From Candidatus Daviesbacteria bacterium RIFCSPLOWO2_01_FULL_39_23 (GTDB lineage Bacteria; Patescibacteriota; Microgenomatia; Daviesbacterales; UBA10151), in NCBI GenBank assembly GCA_001776935.1, contig MFDN01000011.1, forward strand, positions 1-58,756: a stretch of 58,756 nt of DNA. The letters are read 5' to 3'. A model generated the notes under the pieces. The model saw nothing but the letters and a program-made list of their open reading frames with translations, searched no databases and was not told the origin of the DNA. Position numbers and translations under genes: made by a program. This document shows positions 157 through 23,500 of the stretch, one piece after another (position 1 is the stretch's first letter; each line of letters opens with the position of its first letter).

Positions 157-2148
157 CTAACTCTTAGGCTTAGTCCAGCTGGCGAATTTGCAGACAGGCC
201 AGTTTTTGCAACCGTAAAAAGTCTTACCTCGCCGGGTCCGCCTGACCACAACTTCCCCTCCGTCATCCGGACATTTGGCATCAATCTTTTCTTCCATAGA
301 CTCGGTGTGCTTACAATCCGGAAATCCTGAGCAGGCAAAAAATTTGCCAAACTTGCCTATTCTGACAATTAAATCTTTGCCGCACTCAGGACAGGATCTG
401 CCTGCCAACTCTACCTCCATTTTGACTTTTTTAGCCACTTTTTCGGTTTCTTCCAGTTTTTTCTCAAAAGGCTCATAAAAAGTTCTTATTGTCGGCTTCC
501 ATTCCCTTTGCCCCTGCGCTATCTCATCCAACTCCTGCTCCATTTGAGCGGTGAAAGAATAGTCAAAAACATCAGGAAAATACTCCAGTAAAAACTCACA
601 TACCGTAAACCCTAAAGACGTCGGGATAAATTTACGCTCCAGCTTTTCTACATAAAACCTTTCGACAATAGTAGAAAGTATAGGAGCATAGGTGGAAGGC
701 CTGCCAATTTCAAGCTCTTCCAGTTTCTTAATCAAGGAAGCCTCATTATAACGGGGAGGAGGCTCAGTAAAATGCTGAGTAGGCAGAATCTGAATTAGAT
801 TTAGCGGCTCGTTTTCTGATAATACCGGCAATGCCTGGTTCTTCTTATCTTTGTCTGTTGACTCCTCTTCATCCTGATACTTAATACCTGATACTTGATA
901 CAGCCTTAGCCAACCGTCGAACTTTATAATACTTCCTGTTGCCCGCAGTAAATAACCAGTCGATGCTTCCACATCTATAGTTGTCTGATCCATAACAGCC
1001 TCATTCATCTGACAGGCTACAAACCTCTTCCAAATTAGTTCATATAATCTACTGTGGTCTTTGTTCATGCCGGAGACTTCCTTTATGGCTGATGGCTGAC
1101 GACTAACATCTGTCACCCTTATTGCCTCATGCGCTTCCTGGGCATTTTTAGATTTGGATTTATAAAATTTCGCAGAAGAGGGCAGATAAGATTTACCAAA
1201 AACACTTCCAATATATTTCCTTACTGCCTCCACAGCCTGTGCAGATAAATTCACAGAATCTGTTCTCATATAGGTGATAAGTCCGTGTTCATATAAGGCT
1301 TGGGCAAGCATCATGGTTTTTTTCGCAGACATACCCAGTCTGTTTGCGGCTGTCTGTTGCAGCGTTGAGGTGGTAAAGGGCGGATAAGGATGACGTCTGA
1401 CTTCTTTTTTGGTGATTTTTGAAATTTTATATTCCGAGTTTTCCAAGTTTTTAACATGCCCGTCTGATTCTTCTTTATTTTTGATAACCAGCTTTTCACC
1501 ATTTTTTTCTATTAAGGTTGCCAAAAATTTTGCCTCTTTGCGGTTTTTTGATTCTAATTCCGCTTCTATAAGCCAATACTCCTGAGGCTTGAAAGCAAGA
1601 ACCTCTTTTTCTCTTTCCACAATTAACCTCAAAGCAACAGACTGCACCCTGCCGGCAGACAAGCCTCTTCTGACTTTTTGCCAAAGCAGAGGAGACAATT
1701 TATAACCTACCAGCCTGTCCAGCACCCTTCTTGCCTGCTGCGCATCCACCAGCTTAAAATCAATCTGGCGGGGATTATCAAATGCCTCTTTTATTGCACC
1801 TTCCGTGATTTCATGAAACACCACTCTTTTGACAGGTGATTTAATCTTGGCATCACGAAGCAACTCTGAGATATGCCATGCTATTGCTTCACCTTCACGG
1901 TCAGGATCTGTGGCAAGCCAGAGAATTTGCGCCTCTTTTGCAGCCTTTTTTAATTCATTCACCCTTTTTTTCTTGTCGCGGGGAATAATATATTTAGGTT
2001 CAAAATTATGTTCAATATCCACACCAAACTCTGATTTTGGTAAATCCCTGATATGCCCCATTGAGGCTTCAATTTGATATTTGTCTCCCAAAAATTTCTG
2101 CAGGGTACGGGCCTTGGTAGGCGATTCAACAATTACTAAATTTTGCAT
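157..2148 (-). CDS. topA: DNA topoisomerase I
   Basis: MQNLVIVESPTKARTLQKFLG, SAGRVQSVALRLIVERE, YMRTDSVNLS, C-terminal Cys4 zinc fingers. Confidence 0.97.
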   Translation of the reverse strand: MQNLVIVESPTKARTLQKFLGDKYQIEASMGHIRDLPKSEFGVDIEHNFEPKYIIPRDKKKRVNELKKAAKEAQILWLATDPDREGEAIAWHISELLRDAKIKSPVKRVVFHEITEGAIKEAFDNPRQIDFKLVDAQQARRVLDRLVGYKLSPLLWQKVRRGLSAGRVQSVALRLIVEREKEVLAFKPQEYWLIEAELESKNRKEAKFLATLIEKNGEKLVIKNKEESDGHVKNLENSEYKISKITKKEVRRHPYPPFTTSTLQQTAANRLGMSAKKTMMLAQALYEHGLITYMRTDSVNLSAQAVEAVRKYIGSVFGKSYLPSSAKFYKSKSKNAQEAHEAIRVTDVSRQPSAIKEVSGMNKDHSRLYELIWKRFVACQMNEAVMDQTTIDVEASTGYLLRATGSIIKFDGWLRLYQVSGIKYQDEEESTDKDKKNQALPVLSENEPLNLIQILPTQHFTEPPPRYNEASLIKKLEELEIGRPSTYAPILSTIVERFYVEKLERKFIPTSLGFTVCEFLLEYFPDVFDYSFTAQMEQELDEIAQGQREWKPTIRTFYEPFEKKLEETEKVAKKVKMEVELAGRSCPECGKDLIVRIGKFGKFFACSGFPDCKHTESMEEKIDAKCPDDGGEVVVRRTRRGKTFYGCKNWPVCKFASWTKPKS

Positions 2149-2227
2149 AATATCTTTTAAGTTTTTCCTCCGCTTGCAAAAAGTTACTCTTTCTACTCTC
2201 GGATAATTGTAAGGGAGTTGTCAAGTT

Positions 2228-2491
2228 TTAAAATTGAAAATCCTCATCCAGAATTTGCGGATTAATGCTATTCAGTTCTTTTTCCAAATCAGTAGAACTA
2301 TCATACCTTATCTCTTTTGGAGCATTTATGGCCGGAGTCGATTCGGGGCCTGCCACTGTTTTGTCACCACCCTGCCACAAAGTGGGGCTTATAAGGGTCT
2401 TATTACCATTATTCAAACTGTTGACGATCGTCAATAATACGAACAATGCTAGAGCAACTGCAACTGCAATAATTAATTTATTCCGTTTCAT
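2228..2491 (-). CDS. hypothetical membrane-anchored small protein
   Basis: N-terminal TM segment; overlaps upstream ORF (operon-like). Confidence 0.55.
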   Translation of the reverse strand: MKRNKLIIAVAVALALFVLLTIVNSLNNGNKTLISPTLWQGGDKTVAGPESTPAINAPKEIRYDSSTDLEKELNSINPQILDEDFQF

Positions 2492-2864
2492 TTAAAGCCT
2501 TTCTCACTTCAGATTTTGTTCTTAAGATTTTACTCTGCAAACCTAAAAGGTTTGCTTTCAGCACGCTTTTTGAAGAAAATTTTTGCGCCCGCTGAAAAGC
2601 CAACGCCTCTGCAGCAAAGGTAACCTGATAATCCGCTGATTTAATTTGAGTATCCACTCCTCCAAAAGCCACCCTGGTTTCTGTTACTCCTTTTCTTCTC
2701 CTAAGTTCTTCCATAATCGCCGCGAGCTTAACCATATCCCCCTCAAACCTGTCGCAAACTTTTTGATTTATCTGGTATAAAGAATCTGACTGAGTATTGG
2801 TTTGGGCTAAAATAGTAGCAGGCCACAGAAACATTATTATCACAAGGGGCAGCATCCACTTCAT
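2478..2864 (-). CDS. hypothetical secreted protein
   Basis: Signal peptide MKWMLPLVIIMFLWPATILAQ. Confidence 0.6.
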   Translation of the reverse strand: MKWMLPLVIIMFLWPATILAQTNTQSDSLYQINQKVCDRFEGDMVKLAAIMEELRRRKGVTETRVAFGGVDTQIKSADYQVTFAAEALAFQRAQKFSSKSVLKANLLGLQSKILRTKSEVRKALNETE

Positions 2865-2920
2865 AAGTGTTATTTAATAATACACTATCCATAGATGCCT
2901 AAATCAAGAGCCCAGGAAAA

Positions 2921-2950
2921 ACATTAATCCCGCGGTCGTATGTTTAATGT
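2921..2950 (-). promoter_or_regulatory. 30-bp near-palindrome, copy 1 of 4
   Basis: acattaatcccgcggtcgtatgtttaatgt; arms ACATTAA...TTAATGT; 57 bp upstream of the minus-strand gene starting at 2864. Confidence 0.75.
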
Positions 2951-2974
2951 TGATTAAAGCCAGAAGCTTTCATT

Positions 2975-3583
2975 CTACTCAAAAAGCTTTTGAGGATTAT
3001 TAATTCTTTCGTCAGGTTTGAATGCTAACTTGGTATGTAAATCTAAGACCCCAGCTGAAAAAATCCTCGCATAACGGATCCTACGAAACCAGCCATCTTT
3101 AATATAACCGTGGAAGTTGTAATAGGAGGCACTGATATTAGACACAGGTTCGAAATTAGTTCCCATCAAAGCTACCTGAACCGGTTCTTTCTTAAAGTAC
3201 ACAATTCCTATACCGTTTGTATCATTATCTGCAGGCTTACGCTCTCCAGCTATCTGCTTAAGTCTAGCAAAATCTAGCGGAGGACATCGTCTTGTCAAAG
3301 CCTTTCTTAAAGGGTTAACAAAAATTGTATGCAAGTAAACGATGTCCATCAATCGTTCTTCCCAGCCAAACATTGCAACAAATTGCCATTCAGGTTGCAG
3401 AAATTGATTTTGCATAACCTGTACAACTCTCTGCATTGGAGGACTGGCTTTTGAAAGGTCAATAATTTTGTAAGGGTATTTAACTCCTCCTGCTTCTAGT
3501 CTCGGTATACTGCCTTCAAGAGTCCATTTATTACCCGGAGGAAGTTTTATTTTTGTGCCATTTGCTAATTCTATTCTCATCAT
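2975..3583 (-). CDS. hypothetical protein
   Basis: 202-aa ORF, no recognised domain. Confidence 0.6.
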   Translation of the reverse strand: MMRIELANGTKIKLPPGNKWTLEGSIPRLEAGGVKYPYKIIDLSKASPPMQRVVQVMQNQFLQPEWQFVAMFGWEERLMDIVYLHTIFVNPLRKALTRRCPPLDFARLKQIAGERKPADNDTNGIGIVYFKKEPVQVALMGTNFEPVSNISASYYNFHGYIKDGWFRRIRYARIFSAGVLDLHTKLAFKPDERINNPQKLFE

Positions 3584-8223: not shown

Positions 8224-10047
8224 TTACTCTCCCATCGGTCTTCCGGAATCCGTAGCGGAGACATAAACATCCTTTATCAGATTACTTTTATCAGGCGAGA
8301 AATACCAGCGGTATACTTCTTTGGCAATCGGAGAGGCAACGGATGAACCCTCCCCTCCGCCTTCAACCAGGACCGTCAAGGCGATTTTGGGATCATCTGC
8401 CGGCGCGTAGGAAGTATACCAGGCATGCGTTCTGTCCTTTGGATCACCATATTCGGCAGTTCCGGTTTTACCTGCAGTCTCTATCGGAAAAACAAAAAAG
8501 GGCCAGGCTGTTCCTCCCTCCTTTGTGACTTGCCTTAATCCTTCTTTTACTATTTCTATTTTATCCCCAGCTATCAAATTAGAAACCAAAACCTCCGGCT
8601 TTTGGGAAAGAAGAAGCTGAGGCTTATAAATAATTCCATCAGCTGCGATATAGGAAGTGATTCCCAAAACCTGCAAAGGCGTCGTTAAAACAAATCCCTG
8701 GCCTATCGACATATGCAAAGTATCCCCCGGATACCAGGGAACATCAAAGTTTTTCTGTTTCCAATCATTATCAGGAACCAATCCCTTTGCTTCGCCCGGT
8801 ATATCAATCCCGAGCATTTGACCTAAGTGTAATTTCTTTGACCAATCAACCAGTGCGTTTTCCCCGATAATTTGTGAAATTTTATAAAAATATGTATCGT
8901 TTGAACGCTTTAAGGCTTTTTCTAAATTCACCGGACCCTCTACTTTACCGTATTGATTAAAATACCAATTACTGAATTTAAACTGACCCAAATACATTAC
9001 TCCTTCGTCTAAAAAAGTGGTATCCGGGGTGATTTTGCCGGAAGCCAAAGCTGCAAGCGAAGAAATTATTTTATAAGTAGAACCGGGAGGATAAGTCCCG
9101 GCAATAACCCTGTTAAGGATTGGTGAATCAGAACGGGAAAAAACTTCGCTGATGGACCCATCGTTCAAATTTTGGGCAAAAATATTCGGGTTAAAAGAAG
9201 GGTACGACACTAGAGCCAAAATCTTGCCTGTGGAAGGATCCTGTGCTACTGCAGCCCCGCAGCAGCTGCCGGACTTCACAAGGGCTTCTCCCATCTGTTC
9301 ATAAAGTTTTTCCTGCAAAGAGGCATCTATTGAAAGATATATATTTTGTCCGGGAATTGCGTTCTTATACCGGAGAGTTCTTATTTTATTTCCTTTTGAA
9401 TCCACTTCAATTATCTCTCCCCCGTCTATTCCCCGAAGAATCTTCTCGTATTGATCTTCTACGCCTGATTTACCAATCCTGTCTCCGGGGCGGTAGTTTT
9501 TAAACTCTCCGCTTTTGATCTGCTCCTCGGAAATTTCCCCCACATATCCCACAACGTGAGCAAATTTCTCACCCAACGGATATGTTCTGACATTATCAAT
9601 TTCAAGTTTTGCAAAATCCGGATCATTTTTAACTTCCCATTCCAGAGCCCGCTCCCTTGAGATTAAATGCATTTTCAAGCGGAAAGCAGGAGAATTAGCT
9701 GCCAGAATTTTACCGTTACGGTCAAATATAACTCCGCGGGGCGCATGAATTATTTTAACTTGGATCCGGTTGCTATCGGCAAGCTCCCGGTTTGAACTGC
9801 CATGCGCTATCTGAAGGTGAAAAAGACGCAAAAAAAGGAAAAAAAAGGATATTAAACCAACAGAGAAGAAAAAAATAATTCTCCAGGTGCTGTTTTTGGT
9901 TGAATATTCTTCTTGATGACGAAAATTCGGAAGCAAAGAATCAACCCAATCCGGGGAACCCTCTTTTTGAAAATGCCCGATCTTTGTTGTAACCTTTGCC
10001 ACCTCTTCGGAAAATGAAGGGCCCAAAAATTTTCTTTTTTTAACCAT
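8224..10047 (-). CDS. mrdA: penicillin-binding protein 2
   Basis: APRGVIFDRNG, AGTYPPGSTYKI (SxxK), SND, KTGTAEYG. Confidence 0.93.
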   Translation of the reverse strand: MVKKRKFLGPSFSEEVAKVTTKIGHFQKEGSPDWVDSLLPNFRHQEEYSTKNSTWRIIFFFSVGLISFFFLFLRLFHLQIAHGSSNRELADSNRIQVKIIHAPRGVIFDRNGKILAANSPAFRLKMHLISRERALEWEVKNDPDFAKLEIDNVRTYPLGEKFAHVVGYVGEISEEQIKSGEFKNYRPGDRIGKSGVEDQYEKILRGIDGGEIIEVDSKGNKIRTLRYKNAIPGQNIYLSIDASLQEKLYEQMGEALVKSGSCCGAAVAQDPSTGKILALVSYPSFNPNIFAQNLNDGSISEVFSRSDSPILNRVIAGTYPPGSTYKIISSLAALASGKITPDTTFLDEGVMYLGQFKFSNWYFNQYGKVEGPVNLEKALKRSNDTYFYKISQIIGENALVDWSKKLHLGQMLGIDIPGEAKGLVPDNDWKQKNFDVPWYPGDTLHMSIGQGFVLTTPLQVLGITSYIAADGIIYKPQLLLSQKPEVLVSNLIAGDKIEIVKEGLRQVTKEGGTAWPFFVFPIETAGKTGTAEYGDPKDRTHAWYTSYAPADDPKIALTVLVEGGGEGSSVASPIAKEVYRWYFSPDKSNLIKDVYVSATDSGRPMGE

Positions 10048-10063
10048 AAGTGGTGACTGGTCG

Positions 10064-10507
10064 CTAAACTCTTAACTTAATTTCTTTTCTCACAATAAAT
10101 CTCTCTTCCCAAAGCCTTAATAAAAAAAGAATCGGCAGGGCAAGAATTGAAGTAAAGATTATTTTTGGAAAATCCATTGTTTGATGATTAATAAATGAAT
10201 TTATCAATTGACTAAAAGATAAAAATAAGAAAGAAACAGGCACAACAAGAAATGGGTTGCCGGCAAGCCGGGATCCAGACAGCAATCCTGTTGTCCAAAC
10301 AACAATAAGATATACAAAGGTTTGAAAACCTAAATTAATAAGATTAAGATGAGCAGTCAACATACCAAAGGCAAAAGCAAGGTAAAGATTTGCCCGCTCG
10401 GATTTTATATATGCCCTGCAGATTAAAACAAGGAGCACCAAATCTATAGGCAAAATGGTGGTTTGCAAAAAGGATGCAATGATTAAAATAACAATAAGTG
10501 TTTTCAT
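10064..10507 (-). CDS. mreD: MreD-like rod-shape protein
   Basis: Hydrophobic 147-aa protein between mreC and PBP2. Confidence 0.65.
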   Translation of the reverse strand: MKTLIVILIIASFLQTTILPIDLVLLVLICRAYIKSERANLYLAFAFGMLTAHLNLINLGFQTFVYLIVVWTTGLLSGSRLAGNPFLVVPVSFLFLSFSQLINSFINHQTMDFPKIIFTSILALPILFLLRLWEERFIVRKEIKLRV

Positions 10508-10508
10508 T

Positions 10509-11333
10509 TTATTCTAAAATCACAAACACCAGCTCCAAATCTCTAATATCAAACACAGGGGTTATTTTGGCCTGTTTAAATATCTCATTTTCGCGCTCCA
10601 ACACTTGCCCCACCCTGCCCAATACTAACCCTCTTGGCAAAAATCCCTCCAGTCCTTCTGAATAAACTAAATCACCGGCGCCGATTTGTTCTTCATGCAA
10701 TATTTTATCAAGTAAAATCTCCGTACCAAATTGCCCGTTTAAAACTCCTTTTGCTTTGCCGTCTTTATTCAAAGAAAATGCAGCCACTTTGGAATCCGGA
10801 TCAGTCAGAATCTGCACATTGGCAGCCTGCGCAGACAAAGATACAATTTTTCCTATATAATTATCCTTAAAAATTACAGCCTGACCGACTTTAATGCCCG
10901 CAGAAGAGCCACGGTCGATTTTTAAAAACCTCCCCAAACCTATTGGCCTGGCAGGCAGCAAATTATAAGTACGCGGATCAAGATGTTGTTCCTGAGAAAG
11001 CAAACTTTCTGTTTCTGCAAGTTTTTTCCGCAAAGTGGCATTTTCCGAAAGAAGTTCAGCAGCCTGCTCTTTTAATGCTTTGTTTTCCTGTGAAGCAAAT
11101 CTGGCGGCAAAAATGAAATGAATTTGTTTGCCTATATTTTTACCGGTATTGTAAATCCCAAAAGATATGGGATTTGTAACATAAAAAACTAATTTTTTTG
11201 GTAAATTTAAAAAGCTGTATCTGTCTAAAATAAAAATTATGATGCTGAAAAATACTAATATTATTAAAACTTTCAAATTGGGCATTACTTTGGTCATTTT
11301 CGAACCAATATACCACAGCTTGCCAGTCCTCAC
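10509..11333 (-). CDS. mreC: rod shape-determining protein MreC
   Basis: TM + coiled coil + IDRGSSAGIKVGQAVI..GKIVSLS..VQILTDPDSKVAA. Confidence 0.9.
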   Translation of the reverse strand: MRTGKLWYIGSKMTKVMPNLKVLIILVFFSIIIFILDRYSFLNLPKKLVFYVTNPISFGIYNTGKNIGKQIHFIFAARFASQENKALKEQAAELLSENATLRKKLAETESLLSQEQHLDPRTYNLLPARPIGLGRFLKIDRGSSAGIKVGQAVIFKDNYIGKIVSLSAQAANVQILTDPDSKVAAFSLNKDGKAKGVLNGQFGTEILLDKILHEEQIGAGDLVYSEGLEGFLPRGLVLGRVGQVLERENEIFKQAKITPVFDIRDLELVFVILE

Positions 11334-13462: not shown

Positions 13463-13492
13463 ACATTAACCCCACGACCGTATGTTTAATGT
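13463..13492 (-). promoter_or_regulatory. 30-bp near-palindrome, copy 2 of 4
   Basis: acattaaccccacgaccgtatgtttaatgt; abuts the 3' end of the PaaX-like gene and precedes 12846..13409. Confidence 0.8.
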
Positions 13493-13986
13493 TAACGATC
13501 GATGTTGTCTGATTCTACTACCATTACCCAATCCTCTATCCCAACACTCTTAACAAAATCCCTTAAAGCTTTTGCGCAATTTTTCTTGGTTCCCCAAACA
13601 CTTTGCTGAAAATGCACAAAGCCCCATTGTTTTAACTTGGACCTTAATAAATCCCTTGCTTGTCTTCTTTTTTCCGGGATATCAAACATTACCAGTCTCC
13701 ACTTTCCGTCCCACTCTTTTTCACTGAATTTTAAACTTGCAAGTACTACTTTTTCTCTCCCTTTATCTGTTAATCTGTAAGCCAGTTTTTCATCGCTTAC
13801 TAGTTCAATCAAACCACCTTCTCTTAATCTTTTTAAAGCTTGCGAAAGAGCAGTCTTTTTAAGTTCGGGAATACCATAATGGTAACGGTAGTGGTGTTCG
13901 GCAAAATCATCAAATCTGACATATCCGTCAATTGATTTTTCCAAAGACAAAAGCACAAAATCCGTAATCCTTCTTTTAACATTCAT
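13492..13986 (-). CDS. PaaX-like regulator: winged HTH + Cas2-like ferredoxin-fold C-terminal domain
   Basis: HTH region LKKTALSQALKRLREGGLIELVSD; C-terminal WDGKWRLVMFDIPEKRRQARDLLRSKLKQWGFVHFQQSVWGT typical of PaaX_C/Cas2-like. Confidence 0.85.
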   Translation of the reverse strand: MNVKRRITDFVLLSLEKSIDGYVRFDDFAEHHYRYHYGIPELKKTALSQALKRLREGGLIELVSDEKLAYRLTDKGREKVVLASLKFSEKEWDGKWRLVMFDIPEKRRQARDLLRSKLKQWGFVHFQQSVWGTKKNCAKALRDFVKSVGIEDWVMVVESDNIDR

Positions 13987-13990
13987 TAAA

Positions 13991-14020
13991 ACATTAATAC
14001 TACGACCGTAGTATTAATGT
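13991..14020 (-). promoter_or_regulatory. 30-bp perfect palindrome (14-bp arms, 2-bp centre), copy 3 of 4; contains a candidate promoter of the PaaX-like gene
   Basis: acattaatactacg-ac-cgtagtattaatgt; minus strand reads TTGACA-N18-TATTAA, ATG about 8 nt after the -10. Confidence 0.88.
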
Positions 14021-14113: not shown

Positions 14114-14175
14114 TTATTTTTTTGTTTTAATTTCTTTCGCCAGATCATGATTCCATATAGCGCCAGTAATAAACA
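14114..14175 (-). pseudogene. pyrD 3'-end remnant (copy C)
   Basis: Minus strand encodes ITGAIWNHDLAKEIKTKK*, matching the intact PyrD C-terminus SATGAMWDPNLAKEIKKKS*. Confidence 0.8.
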
Positions 14176-14195
14176 TTGACTTCTAAATATAATTA

Positions 14196-16253
14196 GTGCT
14201 TTACTGTAATCAGTGTATGTTTAGTAATCCCCAAAAAGGGGCTGCCCATATCTTACTGCTAATCCTGATTATTGCCGGTTTGGCTGTTTCTGTATATGTT
14301 TTAGGCATAGAAACTAAAATCTTTCCTAAAGCTTATGAACAAAAATCAGCAAAAAACAATACCTGGGAGGAAACAATTTTTCCTAAAAAGGAGAACCAGA
14401 AAGCAGAAGCAACATCAATACAGACAAATACTGAAAGTGCCAATAAAAACCTTCCTCAACCTTCAACCTGGAGAAATATGCAAGTACAGGTGGTGCCTGA
14501 CTCTTTCTTTAACTCCGGTTTTAAAGAAAGCAGTGCCGGTATTACAGCTATCCAGGCAATAAGCGATGGCAGATTGTTTTTAGGCCAATTTAATATCTTC
14601 GCAATAAAAAATCCTGATGATAAAAACTGGCAGCACCTAGGCTATTACAAATTAAAGCTTCGGGATAATCAACACACGAATATAAAATATTTTGTCCAAA
14701 CCCGGAGCCAGGATTCAGATAAACCTGAAGTTTATTTTGGCTACGAGAAAGTCGTAAGACTCAAAAAAGACGGTACCTATGAAATAGTTGTTGACCCCAC
14801 AGACGCAATTGGTTATTTAAGGAATGCTAAAATCATTCCTTACTCCAGCAACGACGCGGTTGCGGCATATCGGGATAATGAGTTGTATTATCTTGAAAAA
14901 GGCACACTAAGAAAATGGCTTTCTCCGCATAGTTATGGCTGCTCGGATAAAATTCTGAATATGTTTACTGATCCTTTCTCTAAAAAAACATATGGTATTA
15001 TTACCGAATATTCATCATATGCTTTTTGCGGCCCTAACGCCCAAACCCATCTTTATGAATTTATCTTTACCAGCAACCCTAAAATACCTCTTCAAGCAAA
15101 CAGACTGGGTCAAATCAGTAATGCAACCATACTTGATAAAGCAGTAGTAAGCATGAGGAAAGATAACCAGGGCCAAAAGATTCTTTACGGCTTTAAAAAA
15201 TATGTCAATAAGCTTTATTTAATAAGCAACTTTGATCCTTTGAAAGATCTTACCTTAGAAAGCCAAAATATAGATCCGGATATACAGTCCGCTCCAAGTA
15301 TGGGAGATCTTGAAATAGCGCTTAAAAACACCGATACAGATAGTGTTTGGGCAGCAGCTGAGCAGGTAAAAGGTATGTATTTGGGACAAAACTTTGATAA
15401 TGGAAAAGCCCCGGCATTTCTACGTACAGAGGATACCGCTATTTTGGCAAATCCATATATAAATGACCTGACGGTTGATAATATGGGAAATGTGCTTGTT
15501 GCCCATCAATACCTGCCAAGTCAATTTAATCAGGCCATGGTCACAATTTTCCAGACACCTTCTCAAACTCTACCAACTCCCCCTCTTCCAGCTATTGTCG
15601 GACAAGCTGTTTCTTTGGATGGACAAAGTTACATCAATGCTGCTGATCAAAATCAAAAGCTGGGTGTTACAAATGATTTCACCATAGAAACATGGATCAA
15701 ACCTTTTAACAGCCAGGATTTAAACTATATAATCGGCAGATACTCGTCAGCTTTTGGGACAAGATACAAACTTTTCTTATATGTTGATAGCCGAAACAAT
15801 AAAGCGGATTTGCGCTTTAGTGTTCCCGGATTAGCCGGGATGTCTGATGCCCTGACTATAATTCCTCTTAATGAATGGATTCATGTGGCTGCTGTCAAAG
15901 AAGGGAATACTATCAGAGGCTATATTAACGGGGTAAAAGCTTTTGAAGTAACAGGAACTGCAGGAAACTTGTCTGATGAGCCAGGAAGCATAACAACGTT
16001 AGGGGCCTGGAAAATTCCTACCTTTACAGGATACAAATTCAAAGGATTAATTGATGATTTAAGGGTATCAAATACAGCCAGAGATGTAACAACAAACTGG
16101 AACAATGGTATATATTTCCAATCTTTAACATCCGATTCAAATACTCTGGCGCTTTGGAAATTTGAAAATAACTTAAATGATTCCGGGTCTAATATTATTC
16201 CGACCTCAGGTACAGGAAACATATTATATGAGTCAGGAAAGGTAGCTCCTTAA
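14196..16253 (+). CDS. membrane-anchored protein with C-terminal LamG/concanavalin-like domain
   Basis: N-terminal TM; DFTIETWIKPFN...NEWIHVAAVKEGNTIRGYINGVKAFEVTG...FKGLIDDLRVSNTAR. Confidence 0.85.
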   Translation: MLYCNQCMFSNPQKGAAHILLLILIIAGLAVSVYVLGIETKIFPKAYEQKSAKNNTWEETIFPKKENQKAEATSIQTNTESANKNLPQPSTWRNMQVQVVPDSFFNSGFKESSAGITAIQAISDGRLFLGQFNIFAIKNPDDKNWQHLGYYKLKLRDNQHTNIKYFVQTRSQDSDKPEVYFGYEKVVRLKKDGTYEIVVDPTDAIGYLRNAKIIPYSSNDAVAAYRDNELYYLEKGTLRKWLSPHSYGCSDKILNMFTDPFSKKTYGIITEYSSYAFCGPNAQTHLYEFIFTSNPKIPLQANRLGQISNATILDKAVVSMRKDNQGQKILYGFKKYVNKLYLISNFDPLKDLTLESQNIDPDIQSAPSMGDLEIALKNTDTDSVWAAAEQVKGMYLGQNFDNGKAPAFLRTEDTAILANPYINDLTVDNMGNVLVAHQYLPSQFNQAMVTIFQTPSQTLPTPPLPAIVGQAVSLDGQSYINAADQNQKLGVTNDFTIETWIKPFNSQDLNYIIGRYSSAFGTRYKLFLYVDSRNNKADLRFSVPGLAGMSDALTIIPLNEWIHVAAVKEGNTIRGYINGVKAFEVTGTAGNLSDEPGSITTLGAWKIPTFTGYKFKGLIDDLRVSNTARDVTTNWNNGIYFQSLTSDSNTLALWKFENNLNDSGSNIIPTSGTGNILYESGKVAP

Positions 16254-16257
16254 TTAA

Positions 16258-16285
16258 CTCCTCCACAGTTTAATGTGGAGTATCT
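16258..16285 (+). terminator. hairpin terminator candidate
   Basis: CTCCACA-gtttaa-TGTGGAG followed by a T-rich tract. Confidence 0.55.
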
Positions 16286-16359
16286 CTTTGGGTAAATTCT
16301 TCTCGAATCATTCATCCCTAAAGCTGTGCTATGAGGTGTTCTGGTTCAAAAATAAAACT

Positions 16360-16419
16360 CTAACCGTATTTACCTTTAATTTCTTCTGCTAAACAGGGAT
16401 CCCACATAGCGCCGGTTAT
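16360..16419 (-). pseudogene. pyrD 3'-end remnant (copy B)
   Basis: Minus strand encodes SITGAMWDPCLAEEIKGKYG*; overlaps the VapC stop codon. Confidence 0.85.
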
Positions 16420-16805
16420 GGAAGCGGATATAGGTTGATATTAGGAATTTGTTCAAAATGCTTTTGATTAAGAGTCAAAACTGTAGCATTTATCGATAAG
16501 GCCGACGCGGCAATAATATAATCAGGTGCTTGAATACGATGACTAGCATCCCGCGAAAGTTCACCTGCCAACATGGCAATATGCTCATTAAGATCTATTC
16601 TCTCAAAATGGCTAATAAAATAACTCATCTCCTGTAGTTTCTTAATACTTCTAGTACTTGTACCTGAATATAATTCAAATATAACTATGGTTGGTAAGAA
16701 TAATTGTGGATCCTGTTCATCTTCAGCCGCAAAAATAAAGTCGTCCCATTTTTCACCGCCGCGTAAATAATCAATAATGATGCTACTGTCAACTACAATC
16801 TTCAC
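16416..16805 (-). CDS. PIN-domain (VapC-like) toxin
   Basis: MKIVVDSSIIIDYLRG...IQAPDYIIAASALSINATVLTLNQKHFEQI. Confidence 0.9.
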   Translation of the reverse strand: MKIVVDSSIIIDYLRGGEKWDDFIFAAEDEQDPQLFLPTIVIFELYSGTSTRSIKKLQEMSYFISHFERIDLNEHIAMLAGELSRDASHRIQAPDYIIAASALSINATVLTLNQKHFEQIPNINLYPLP

Positions 16806-17083
16806 TTTTTAAATTTTAGTCCTTTGTCCCATTTTCCCACTGTGGGCCATGCACCAGACCTTCTAAGTGGATTATCTTTTTCATCATAATCCTTCCAAAT
16901 CCCACGAACTGCTTTTGAAGCCTTGCGTAAAGCTACCCAGTCAACAGTTTTTTTCTTAGGAGAAAGCACTGCCACTTCTTTTGAATCTCTCTCAATAATT
17001 ACCTGTGTTCCTAAAGCCACTTGGTTTAAGAGCTCAAAAAATTTATTTCTGGCGGCTGTAGCTGAAACTCTGATAGTATTCAT
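16802..17083 (-). CDS. Phd/YefM-type antitoxin (track ORF extends to 17113; start MNTIRVS preferred)
   Basis: MNTIRVSATAARNKFFELLNQVALGTQVIIERDSKEVAVLSP. Confidence 0.85.
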   Translation of the reverse strand: MNTIRVSATAARNKFFELLNQVALGTQVIIERDSKEVAVLSPKKKTVDWVALRKASKAVRGIWKDYDEKDNPLRRSGAWPTVGKWDKGLKFKK

Positions 17084-17128
17084 GTGTATATTATACCACA
17101 CCGTAATGTACACTCTGTCAATAGCAAA

Positions 17129-18229
17129 TTAGGATTTTTTCTTGATTTCTTTCGCCAAATTGGGATCCCACATAGCGCCGGTGGCAGACATAACCGCATC
17201 TGCCCCAGCTTCCATATACTCAAAATAATCTTCAGGTTTTATCACTCCACCTACTCCAATGATTGCTATTGGCTGTTGGCTATTAACTGTTAGCTGTTTA
17301 AGCCTTTTGACCATATCAAGACCTGCCCATTTGATACAGGCTCCGCATACTCCTGAGCGTGCCCTGCTTTTTCCCGGCAAAGCCTGACTGCCGTCTTTAT
17401 CTATAATTTCAGCCTGAATGGTGTTAATGGAAGCAATGCCTTGTGCATAATTTTCACAAATTTCTACCAATTCCTCCAGATCTTTTCCTTGTTCTTTTTT
17501 GTAGTAACCTACCTTCAAAATCAATGGGATATCTCCAATTTCTTTCCTGACAGCCTGACAAACTTTTTGGGTCATCTCCAGGTTATAACAAACCAGTCCT
17601 TCATTGCCGATATTGGGACAAGACAGGTTCATTTCCAAAACTTTCGCGCCTGTTTGAACCGATAATTTGGCTGCCAGTGCATAATCTGCTATAAAATCCT
17701 CAGGAGATTGTCTCTCTCTAACAGTACCCATAAAACTTAAAACTAAAACCTGGCCCTTTCCGGTAAAAGAAATTGCCTTTTTAACATCTTCTTTCCAGAC
17801 AATCGGCTCTTTTGAAGGAACTCCAAAGGAGTTAGTAATAGATAAAGGCTCCGAGTAATTATTATCCGCAATTAATTTCTCTTGGGCTTTTTCAACAGTC
17901 AAATCCCCTTCGACTTTTACGGATAAAATATTAGGGTGCGGGTGACAGGGGAAAAAAGCGGTGCGGACTGTTTTATATACACAAATATCAAAGCCTTTTT
18001 CAAAAGCAGCCTTGCAAAATTTACTATTTACCAGGGGTCCGGCCGGAATCCCAAAAGGGGTAAATACTTTTTGACCTAAAAAATCTACTTGCGGTTCACC
18101 TTCCTGATTAAAAACTTTCCCATCAGCAAAATCACCATATGGCCCCTGGTCGTAATTTTCTTCATAACTTTTGTTTGGATCGTAAAAAGGAATCTGCAAC
18201 ATATTACCGTTAATCTTAGCACAAATCAA
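17129..18229 (-). CDS. pyrD: dihydroorotate dehydrogenase family protein
   Basis: GIPAGPLVNSKFC, LEMNLSCPNIGNEG, LILKVGYYKKE, IIGVGGVIKPEDYFEYMEAGADAVMSATGAMWDPNLAKEI. Confidence 0.9.
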   Translation of the reverse strand: MICAKINGNMLQIPFYDPNKSYEENYDQGPYGDFADGKVFNQEGEPQVDFLGQKVFTPFGIPAGPLVNSKFCKAAFEKGFDICVYKTVRTAFFPCHPHPNILSVKVEGDLTVEKAQEKLIADNNYSEPLSITNSFGVPSKEPIVWKEDVKKAISFTGKGQVLVLSFMGTVRERQSPEDFIADYALAAKLSVQTGAKVLEMNLSCPNIGNEGLVCYNLEMTQKVCQAVRKEIGDIPLILKVGYYKKEQGKDLEELVEICENYAQGIASINTIQAEIIDKDGSQALPGKSRARSGVCGACIKWAGLDMVKRLKQLTVNSQQPIAIIGVGGVIKPEDYFEYMEAGADAVMSATGAMWDPNLAKEIKKKS

Positions 18230-20464: not shown

Positions 20465-20686
20465 CTATTTAATTCTATCAAATTCCTTTTGAGTTATTCC
20501 CATCTGATTAAGAATACTTTTAATAGTTCCTGATTTAATTTCATGGTGATGGGGAATAATACACGTTTTCTTTTTATTTTCATTCCACCAGATTTCGTGA
20601 GTGCCGCCGGTATTTCTTCTGAAAACAAATCCTGCTTTGCGGACTTTTTTGATTAATTCCCGATAAGTAAAAGGTCTGAATGTCAT
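20465..20686 (-). CDS. hicA: HicA-family toxin
   Basis: ELIKKVRKAGFVFRRNTGGTHEIWW...CIIPHHHEIKSGTIKSILNQMGIT. Confidence 0.9.
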   Translation of the reverse strand: MTFRPFTYRELIKKVRKAGFVFRRNTGGTHEIWWNENKKKTCIIPHHHEIKSGTIKSILNQMGITQKEFDRIK

Positions 20687-20952
20687 GTAGCTACAATTAC
20701 AGGTAACGTAAGAGGAGTTGTAACACTTTTTTCTTTTTGCGTCTTTAGAGGGATCCTTAAACCTTCTTCTTTGTATAATTCAATAAGGGATTGCGCAACA
20801 GCCGTAATCTCCAAGACAGCTTCATCAACTGTATCTCCCTGAGCAAAACAGTCTGACCATTTGGGACAAGTCACAACATATCCCCCTTCTTTTTGAGGCT
20901 CAATTTTAATCGGTAACTCATATTCTGAAACTTTTTTGGTTTGCTTTAACAT
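20683..20952 (-). CDS. hicB: HicB-family antitoxin
   Basis: GGYVVTCPKWSDCFAQGDTVDEAVLEITAVAQSLIELY. Confidence 0.85.
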   Translation of the reverse strand: MLKQTKKVSEYELPIKIEPQKEGGYVVTCPKWSDCFAQGDTVDEAVLEITAVAQSLIELYKEEGLRIPLKTQKEKSVTTPLTLPVIVAT

Positions 20953-22812: not shown

Positions 22813-23085
22813 ATGCTAAATACTTTTATCCCGGCCAGAAAACTGCAAAAATCTTATAAGTCCGTTATCAATACTGTTAAAACAAAAAAACAGGCTGTGG
22901 TTTTAACAACCGGCGGCGAACCACAGGCTGCAATTGTCAGCCTGGAAGACTTACAGGAGCTTGAGCAGGCTAAAACAAAACAGGCTGCTTTGGACATGCT
23001 TGAGCTGGCAACCGAAGCCAGGGAAGAACTAAAACGTCTACCATCTAATCTGCGTAAACAGGCAGATAAGATTCTCTATGGTTAA
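22813..23085 (+). CDS. Phd/YefM-family antitoxin
   Basis: MLNTFIPARKLQKSYKSVINTVKTKKQAVVLTTGGEPQAAIVSLEDL; upstream TGATATCA repeats. Confidence 0.85.
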   Translation: MLNTFIPARKLQKSYKSVINTVKTKKQAVVLTTGGEPQAAIVSLEDLQELEQAKTKQAALDMLELATEAREELKRLPSNLRKQADKILYG

Positions 23086-23500
23086 AACAGTGATAGTTGA
23101 TTCCGATGCAATATTTGCCCTCTATAATCCCAATGACCCATTAAATAAAAAGGCAACCCAAACTTTCCGGTCTCTTATTACCGGGGGCTATCAACTCCTT
23201 TACCCTACTTCAGTTATTTTTGAAGTGATTTCACTGTTCCAGCGGGTTTTGCCTGCTCCCACTGTCACAACTAAGCTCATAGAGATGATTAAAAAAGACA
23301 ATTTGCTAATCTATATTGTTGATACGGAGATTTTAAAGAAAGCCGCAGCCATTTTTGATCCGGCCGGCAGCAAAAAAAATACCCTGATAGATTGTTCCGT
23401 AGTTGCTGTAGCTAAAAAAATCAAAGCAGACGGAGTGTTTGCCTATGATGAATTCTACATCAAACAGGGTTTAAAGCCGGCAGAGGATTTGTTAAAATAA
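23078..23500 (+). CDS. PIN-domain (VapC-like) toxin
   Basis: VIVDSDAIFALYNPNDP...NTLIDCSVVAVAKKIKADGVFAYDEFYIKQGL. Confidence 0.88.
   Translation: MVKTVIVDSDAIFALYNPNDPLNKKATQTFRSLITGGYQLLYPTSVIFEVISLFQRVLPAPTVTTKLIEMIKKDNLLIYIVDTEILKKAAAIFDPAGSKKNTLIDCSVVAVAKKIKADGVFAYDEFYIKQGLKPAEDLLK

Follow-up and report, generated by a model that had tools for sequence, protein, structure and literature searches.

A VapBC-type toxin–antitoxin unit flanked by pyrD tails in a Candidatus Daviesbacteria genome, and related units behind other genes that probably move by duplicating their landing spot

It has long been an open question how naked toxin–antitoxin (TA) pairs get from one chromosome to another. 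Among integron gene cassettes, TA genes occur as compact units in an array, with a repeated site after each. Other integrative elements sit at the 3' ends of genes, for example SGI1 at trmE (PMC8409611). For restriction–modification genes, finally, insertion with a long, variable target duplication has been proposed, with duplications of about 100 bp reported (Nobusato et al. 2000, Gene 259:99, as cited in PMC1643837, PMC3031569, and PMC3874152).

The locus described here shares the array layout of integron TA cassettes, but what is repeated is the tail of a host gene, which varies by locus, and neither IntI nor attC was noticed. As with SGI1-like elements, the gene end is restored and the displaced tail lies at the far end, whereas no integrase was seen here, the inserts measure 0.7 to 2.2 kb, and one cargo family has several unrelated targets. 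Restriction–modification insertion with long, variable target duplications, as far as it is summarized in papers citing the original proposal (PMC3874152, PMC1643837), is the closest published idea: in both cases, a selfish addiction module that has no recombinase of its own lies between direct repeats of the target, which are long and variable. Compared with those summaries, however, the module here is a type II TA pair, the repeats are mostly shorter (25 to 71 bp) and often correspond to the exact end of the docking gene, the hosts are uncultured CPR bacteria, and the older copies have partly diverged as coding sequence. In the part of the literature that was covered, we found no account in which pyrD serves as an insertion site or in which TA units come with the tail of a docking gene.

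The window, a stretch of 58,756 nucleotides from contig MFDN01000011.1 of Candidatus Daviesbacteria bacterium RIFCSPLOWO2_01_FULL_39_23, a very small bacterium from groundwater (genome G000; those named here as G001 to G011 are congeners), contains on its reverse strand the docking gene pyrD of pyrimidine synthesis, encoding dihydroorotate dehydrogenase (17129 to 18229; Pfam DHO_dh, E value of 3.5e-21), with orthologues of 74 to 79% identity in the congeners. A first-pass annotation had described two diverged, same-strand echoes of the pyrD C terminus, and both were recovered: the best matches in the window to the last 54 nucleotides of pyrD (17129 to 17182) lie at 14114 to 14167 (41 of 54 bases) and 16363 to 16416 (40 of 54), with the next best match reaching 29 of 54. 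The remnants are where that annotation had placed them, with slightly different limits: tail 1 (57 nucleotides, in frame to a TAG stop codon) spans 16360 to 16416 instead of 16360 to 16419, and tail 2 (54 nucleotides) spans 14114 to 14167 instead of 14114 to 14175, both on the reverse strand. Chance similarity was ruled out by two controls. For the 54 other open reading frames (ORFs) of at least 100 amino acids, the best echo of the ORF's own last 54 nucleotides was at most 34, with a median of 30 over all ORFs; and the 20-mer GGATCCCACATAGCGCCGGT is found exactly at 17163 to 17182 and 16397 to 16416 and at no other place within three mismatches, against an expectation of 0 from shuffled sequences. 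This 20-mer has only these two copies in the whole 1.28-Mb assembly, and the exact core common to the resident pyrD and tail 1 measures 21 bp (ACCGGCGCTATGTGGGATCCC, at 17162 to 17182 in the resident tail). The similarity begins at ACCGG/ACTGG, and both remnants (tail 1, TGAMWDPCLAEEIKGKYG; tail 2, TGAIWNHDLAKEIKTKK) keep the reading frame, with a stop codon at the end. Since two conserved residues are gone from tail 2 (M to I and P to H) and none from tail 1, the distal copy looks older than the proximal one.

In pyrD orientation, the tail and stop codon of pyrD are followed by vapB, vapC, tail 1, a LamG gene in the opposite orientation, and tail 2, and the remnants do separate two cargo blocks, as had been noted. 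The left end of the vapBC unit, as seen in an alignment of unit ends, is marked by a TTGACA −35 box (17116 to 17121, reverse strand), a region in which relatives keep CTATTGACA-GTGTACATTA. The antitoxin gene (16802 to 17083, reverse strand) is of the Phd/YefM type (Pfam PhdYeFM, E value of 5.7e-6), although its score of 26.4 bits stays below the Pfam cut-off of 29.8, and its ATG is also the start site in orthologues. It precedes a vapC-type PIN toxin gene (16416 to 16805, reverse strand; Pfam PIN, E value of 8.3e-14), in which the acidic positions of the PIN domain are conserved in the family alignment and the TAA stop codon overlaps the first bases of tail 1. A PIN toxin with a small antitoxin upstream, in a single operon, is the layout of a VapBC-like type II TA system, and the pair is predicted to act as one; this cargo would be an addiction module with a putatively toxic component. 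The second block is a gene for a 678-amino-acid surface protein with a LamG domain (14217 to 16253, forward strand; Laminin_G_3, E value of 1.2e-19), of which no full-length homologue was found in any of the relatives searched. Past tail 2 come a PaaX/Cas2-like regulator gene (13492 to 13986, reverse strand; PaaX_M, E value of 6.4e-23), which also lies past vapBC in G001 and is 86% identical there, then a gene for 187 amino acids, and then pyrE/pyrF. A near-perfect palindrome just upstream of the PaaX/Cas2-like gene (13991 to 14020; 14-bp arms ACATTAATACTACG and CGTAGTATTAATGT, 2-bp center) is probably its operator; the same arms precede the G001 orthologue (about 2532 to 2561 of locus L039, in pyrD orientation).

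Across relatives (Candidatus Daviesbacteria-like CPR bacteria), the gap between pyrD and pyrE ranges from 5 bp to 4.3 kb, and the stretch behind pyrD is variable among the 10 congeners with pyrD. The vapBC unit adjoins pyrD in G001, together with the PaaX gene, and in G011; a 540-amino-acid secreted protein and then vapBC are encoded behind pyrD in G007; G005 and G002 have other genes there; and in G003 and G008 nothing is inserted, there being just one pyrD tail and pyrE or pyrF directly after pyrD (a cross-species comparison at about 75% DNA identity in the region). With different cargo or none in congeners, the pyrD 3' end is indeed a repeated insertion site, as had been proposed, and neither fixation of the cargo across relatives nor chance similarity, the two outcomes named beforehand as counting against the proposal, was found. 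A decayed pyrD tail follows vapBC in G011; no orphan tail was found in G001, and hidden tails sought in the inserts of the other congeners did not exceed the null. Two further cases come from another family. In G189, pyrD is followed by a gene for a 199-amino-acid membrane protein and then by an intact orphan pyrD tail. In G273 (locus L078, contig G273:C2, reverse strand, about 930 to 1070 from the locus end), pyrD has been displaced by a truncated gene and by a dihydroorotate dehydrogenase gene with which it shares no homology, and only its old tail is left, overlapping the start of pyrF. The inserts of G189 and G273 contain no TA genes. Overall, the pyrD tail pattern was present in about 75 of the genomes searched, and its context was inspected in about 66; four of these (G000, G011, G189, and G273, from two families) hold orphan tails, five in all, and a phylum-wide pattern search, in which most genomes were without this type of pyrD, yielded no further duplicates. 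All five orphans, with their different cargo, start at nearly the same codon, no more than about 15 nucleotides from the ACCGG in the TGAMW stretch. With uniform and independent breakpoints assumed, the chance of five falling in the last 72 nucleotides of a 1.07-kb gene is about 1e-6.

The VapC family was searched in 95 and then in 374 genomes; in the collection of named genomes, only two sequences matched vapC closely, both in Candidatus Daviesbacteria assemblies from groundwater. The repeat survey took in 22 of 29 VapBC loci, the seven unparsed ones being left out. A direct repeat spanning the unit (score of at least 20), that is, a target repeat on both sides of the inserted module, was present at 7 of the 22, versus 1% of 600 random segments (binomial P of 1.5e-9), an upper figure inasmuch as some repeats of the G170 type could be general intergenic repeats; the firm cases are the five with gene-end or terminator repeats. 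Besides the pyrD tails of G000 and G011, the unit lies behind uppS in G042, where 56 nucleotides of the uppS tail, 48 of them identical, are repeated from the vapC stop codon on; behind another PIN-toxin gene in G342, where a copy of that gene's last 25 nucleotides, 24 of them identical, lies 11 bp past the vapC stop codon; and behind rplL in G031, with the rplL terminator on either side, a sequence of 27 nucleotides that has no third copy in that genome. The repeats in G170 (71 nucleotides, 67 identical) and G199 (61 nucleotides, around a gene start) complete the set. The left end of the unit, with its −35 box motif, is the same at all close loci. No repeat was detectable at the other 15 loci; candidate repeats around vapBC in G017, G035, G041, G048, and G067 were rejected as not above the null.

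Related TA pairs behind different genes probably jump without a recombinase, by duplicating their landing spot. The reading we prefer, though with no better than even confidence, is that vapBC is a recombinase-free mobile TA unit that inserts with a long, variable target duplication and whose tail repeats later serve as homology arms. The unit, which measures about 0.7 kb and extends from a little ahead of its −35 box to the vapC stop codon or thereabouts, would insert beside resident genes and duplicate 25 to 71 bp of the target; behind pyrD, insertion would restore a complete pyrD C terminus, and the second copy would stay behind as an orphan that directly follows vapC. The near-identical repeats at some loci may be such target duplications, fresh-looking as they are. 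The tail repeats would then act as two homology arms that both lie within the docking gene, and ordinary recombination through them could spread the unit among relatives or exchange it between them; we infer both the birth of the repeats and this later role. Less certainly, the LamG block between tail 1 and tail 2 would go back to an additional, earlier event in which the same tail was used. What speaks against the preferred reading, besides the 15 loci without a repeat and the TA-free inserts of G189 and G273, is the shared start of the five orphan pyrD tails despite their different cargo, a pattern not expected from random target duplication, and since the common breakpoint is left unaccounted for, explanations by an integrase or by replacement stay alive.

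The age of the repeats bears on these alternatives. At fourfold sites (31 to 35 per vap gene), vapB and vapC are 55 to 65% identical between G000 and G001 and between G000 and G011, versus 31 to 44% for pyrD and pyrF, so that vapBC must have moved after the species split. Because a neutral tail dating back to the origin of the genus would no longer be recognizable, tail 1 should be younger than the genus split; the presence of vapBC behind pyrD in other congeners would then reflect either repeated arrivals at one place or renewal by recombination. The first-pass annotation had also suggested that cargo may have come with foreign pyrD tails, an idea that fits G189 but is not supported for the window. 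There, the resident pyrD and tail 1 share an Asp codon (WDP) where the pyrD tails of other congeners have Asn, or Thr in G009; 5 of the 11 differences fall at third positions, without bias, and there is no sign of a long separate life as coding sequence. Likewise, the resident and orphan uppS ends of G042 share EFKKALSWY, with residues found in no other family member, and a foreign source sought among the uppS tails of the family was not found. In both cases, the shared derived residues point to an origin within the same lineage. Third positions account for 10 of 10 differences in G189 (10 synonymous and 0 nonsynonymous changes), 8 of 10 in G042, and 5 of 5 in G011. In G189, and less clearly in G042 and G011, the two copies thus look as though each had served as a functional gene end for a long time, for which duplication alone is insufficient and recombination between lineages is needed. 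The set as a whole would be explained most simply if the repeats arose by target duplication and close lineages later exchanged them, G189 and G273 being nearer to a replacement of the allele or gene. The suggested phylogeny of tails did not separate native from foreign ones, the tails being too short and the congeners equally distant, and third-position identity along pyrD gave no recombination signal, with sites near saturation.

Replacement could also be taken as the general mechanism: the pyrD end of a related species, with its cargo, would recombine within pyrD on the left and join at the short, conserved TGAMW on the right, orphaning the recipient's own tail, and selection would keep only those events that give pyrD a working end. 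The synonymous differences in G189, the exchanged dihydroorotate dehydrogenase gene of G273, the clustering of orphan starts at the most conserved stretch, and the competence and recombination genes reported in Patescibacteria (PMC12455944) are all in line with this. However, the derived Asp codon and 21 exact bases common to tail 1 and its resident gene, the residues unique to G042 in both of its uppS copies, the near identity of the repeats in G342, G031, and G170, and the right ends at the vapC stop codon in several cases argue against it, and we consider it rather unlikely. Classical site-specific integration at the 3' end of pyrD, with a tyrosine or serine integrase that acts in trans or has meanwhile disappeared, would explain the nearly constant codon at which the orphans begin across cargoes and families, the 21-bp exact core, and, if stacked elements put displaced host tails downstream, the stronger decay of the distal tail. 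Such an integrase was not found, though: in a search that covered tyrosine recombinases, none was encoded in or beside any insert or unit, the inspected pyrD loci had only Xer-like genes several kilobases away, and the three tyrosine recombinases of G000 are all on other contigs and have counterparts of similar size in congeners. In the viral contigs searched, there was no exact match to the pyrD tail, nothing for vapC, and only domain-level matches for LamG. Nor does one att core go with the cargo family; since the same VapBC family lies behind uppS, another PIN gene, and rplL with the docking-gene end duplicated, targets of unrelated sequence, a pyrD-specific integrase for vapBC is unlikely, and site-specific integration as a whole seems improbable to us. 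If pyrD had been duplicated in tandem and everything except the tails then deleted, same-strand remnants would be accounted for, but these always stop at the same short stretch and never include longer pieces, and the repeats that flank vapBC at uppS, at rplL, and at the PIN gene would be left unexplained; this already disfavored scenario is very improbable.

Returning to the recombinase-free unit, we offer as a tentative and somewhat doubtful extension that CPR bacteria have TA cassettes that carry the end of their docking gene and home into its 3' end across species, whatever the downstream gene order, LamG-type cargo then using the same landing tail. If true, these would be homing cassettes with both homology arms in a conserved gene, so that their spread would be independent of downstream gene order. 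With numerous loci, unit ends that are defined, and repeats that range in age, the VapBC family makes for a testable case; it also reveals an anchored accessory locus in streamlined CPR genomes that are without obvious mobile elements there.

Some minor observations concern the surroundings and the genome. Three TA-like pairs of the window lie within 7 kb: vapBC itself (16416 to 17083), a HicA/HicB-like pair (20465 to 20952; 73 and 89 amino acids), and a Phd-like/PIN-like pair (22813 to 23500), the latter two judged by eye. Elsewhere in G000, contig C9 (locus L128) encodes two Xer-like tyrosine recombinases (2104 to 3102 and 10046 to 10975), about 8 kb apart, which flank two large surface-protein-like genes; G011 has a pair with similar spacing. 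Finally, the secreted proteins encoded behind pyrD in G000 (14220 to 14310) and G007 (locus L031, 1129 to 2751) have in common a hydrophobic N-terminal motif, K-G-x-A-H-I-(L/F)-L-L, which also matches unrelated proteins of relatives and could possibly be a CPR surface-export signal.
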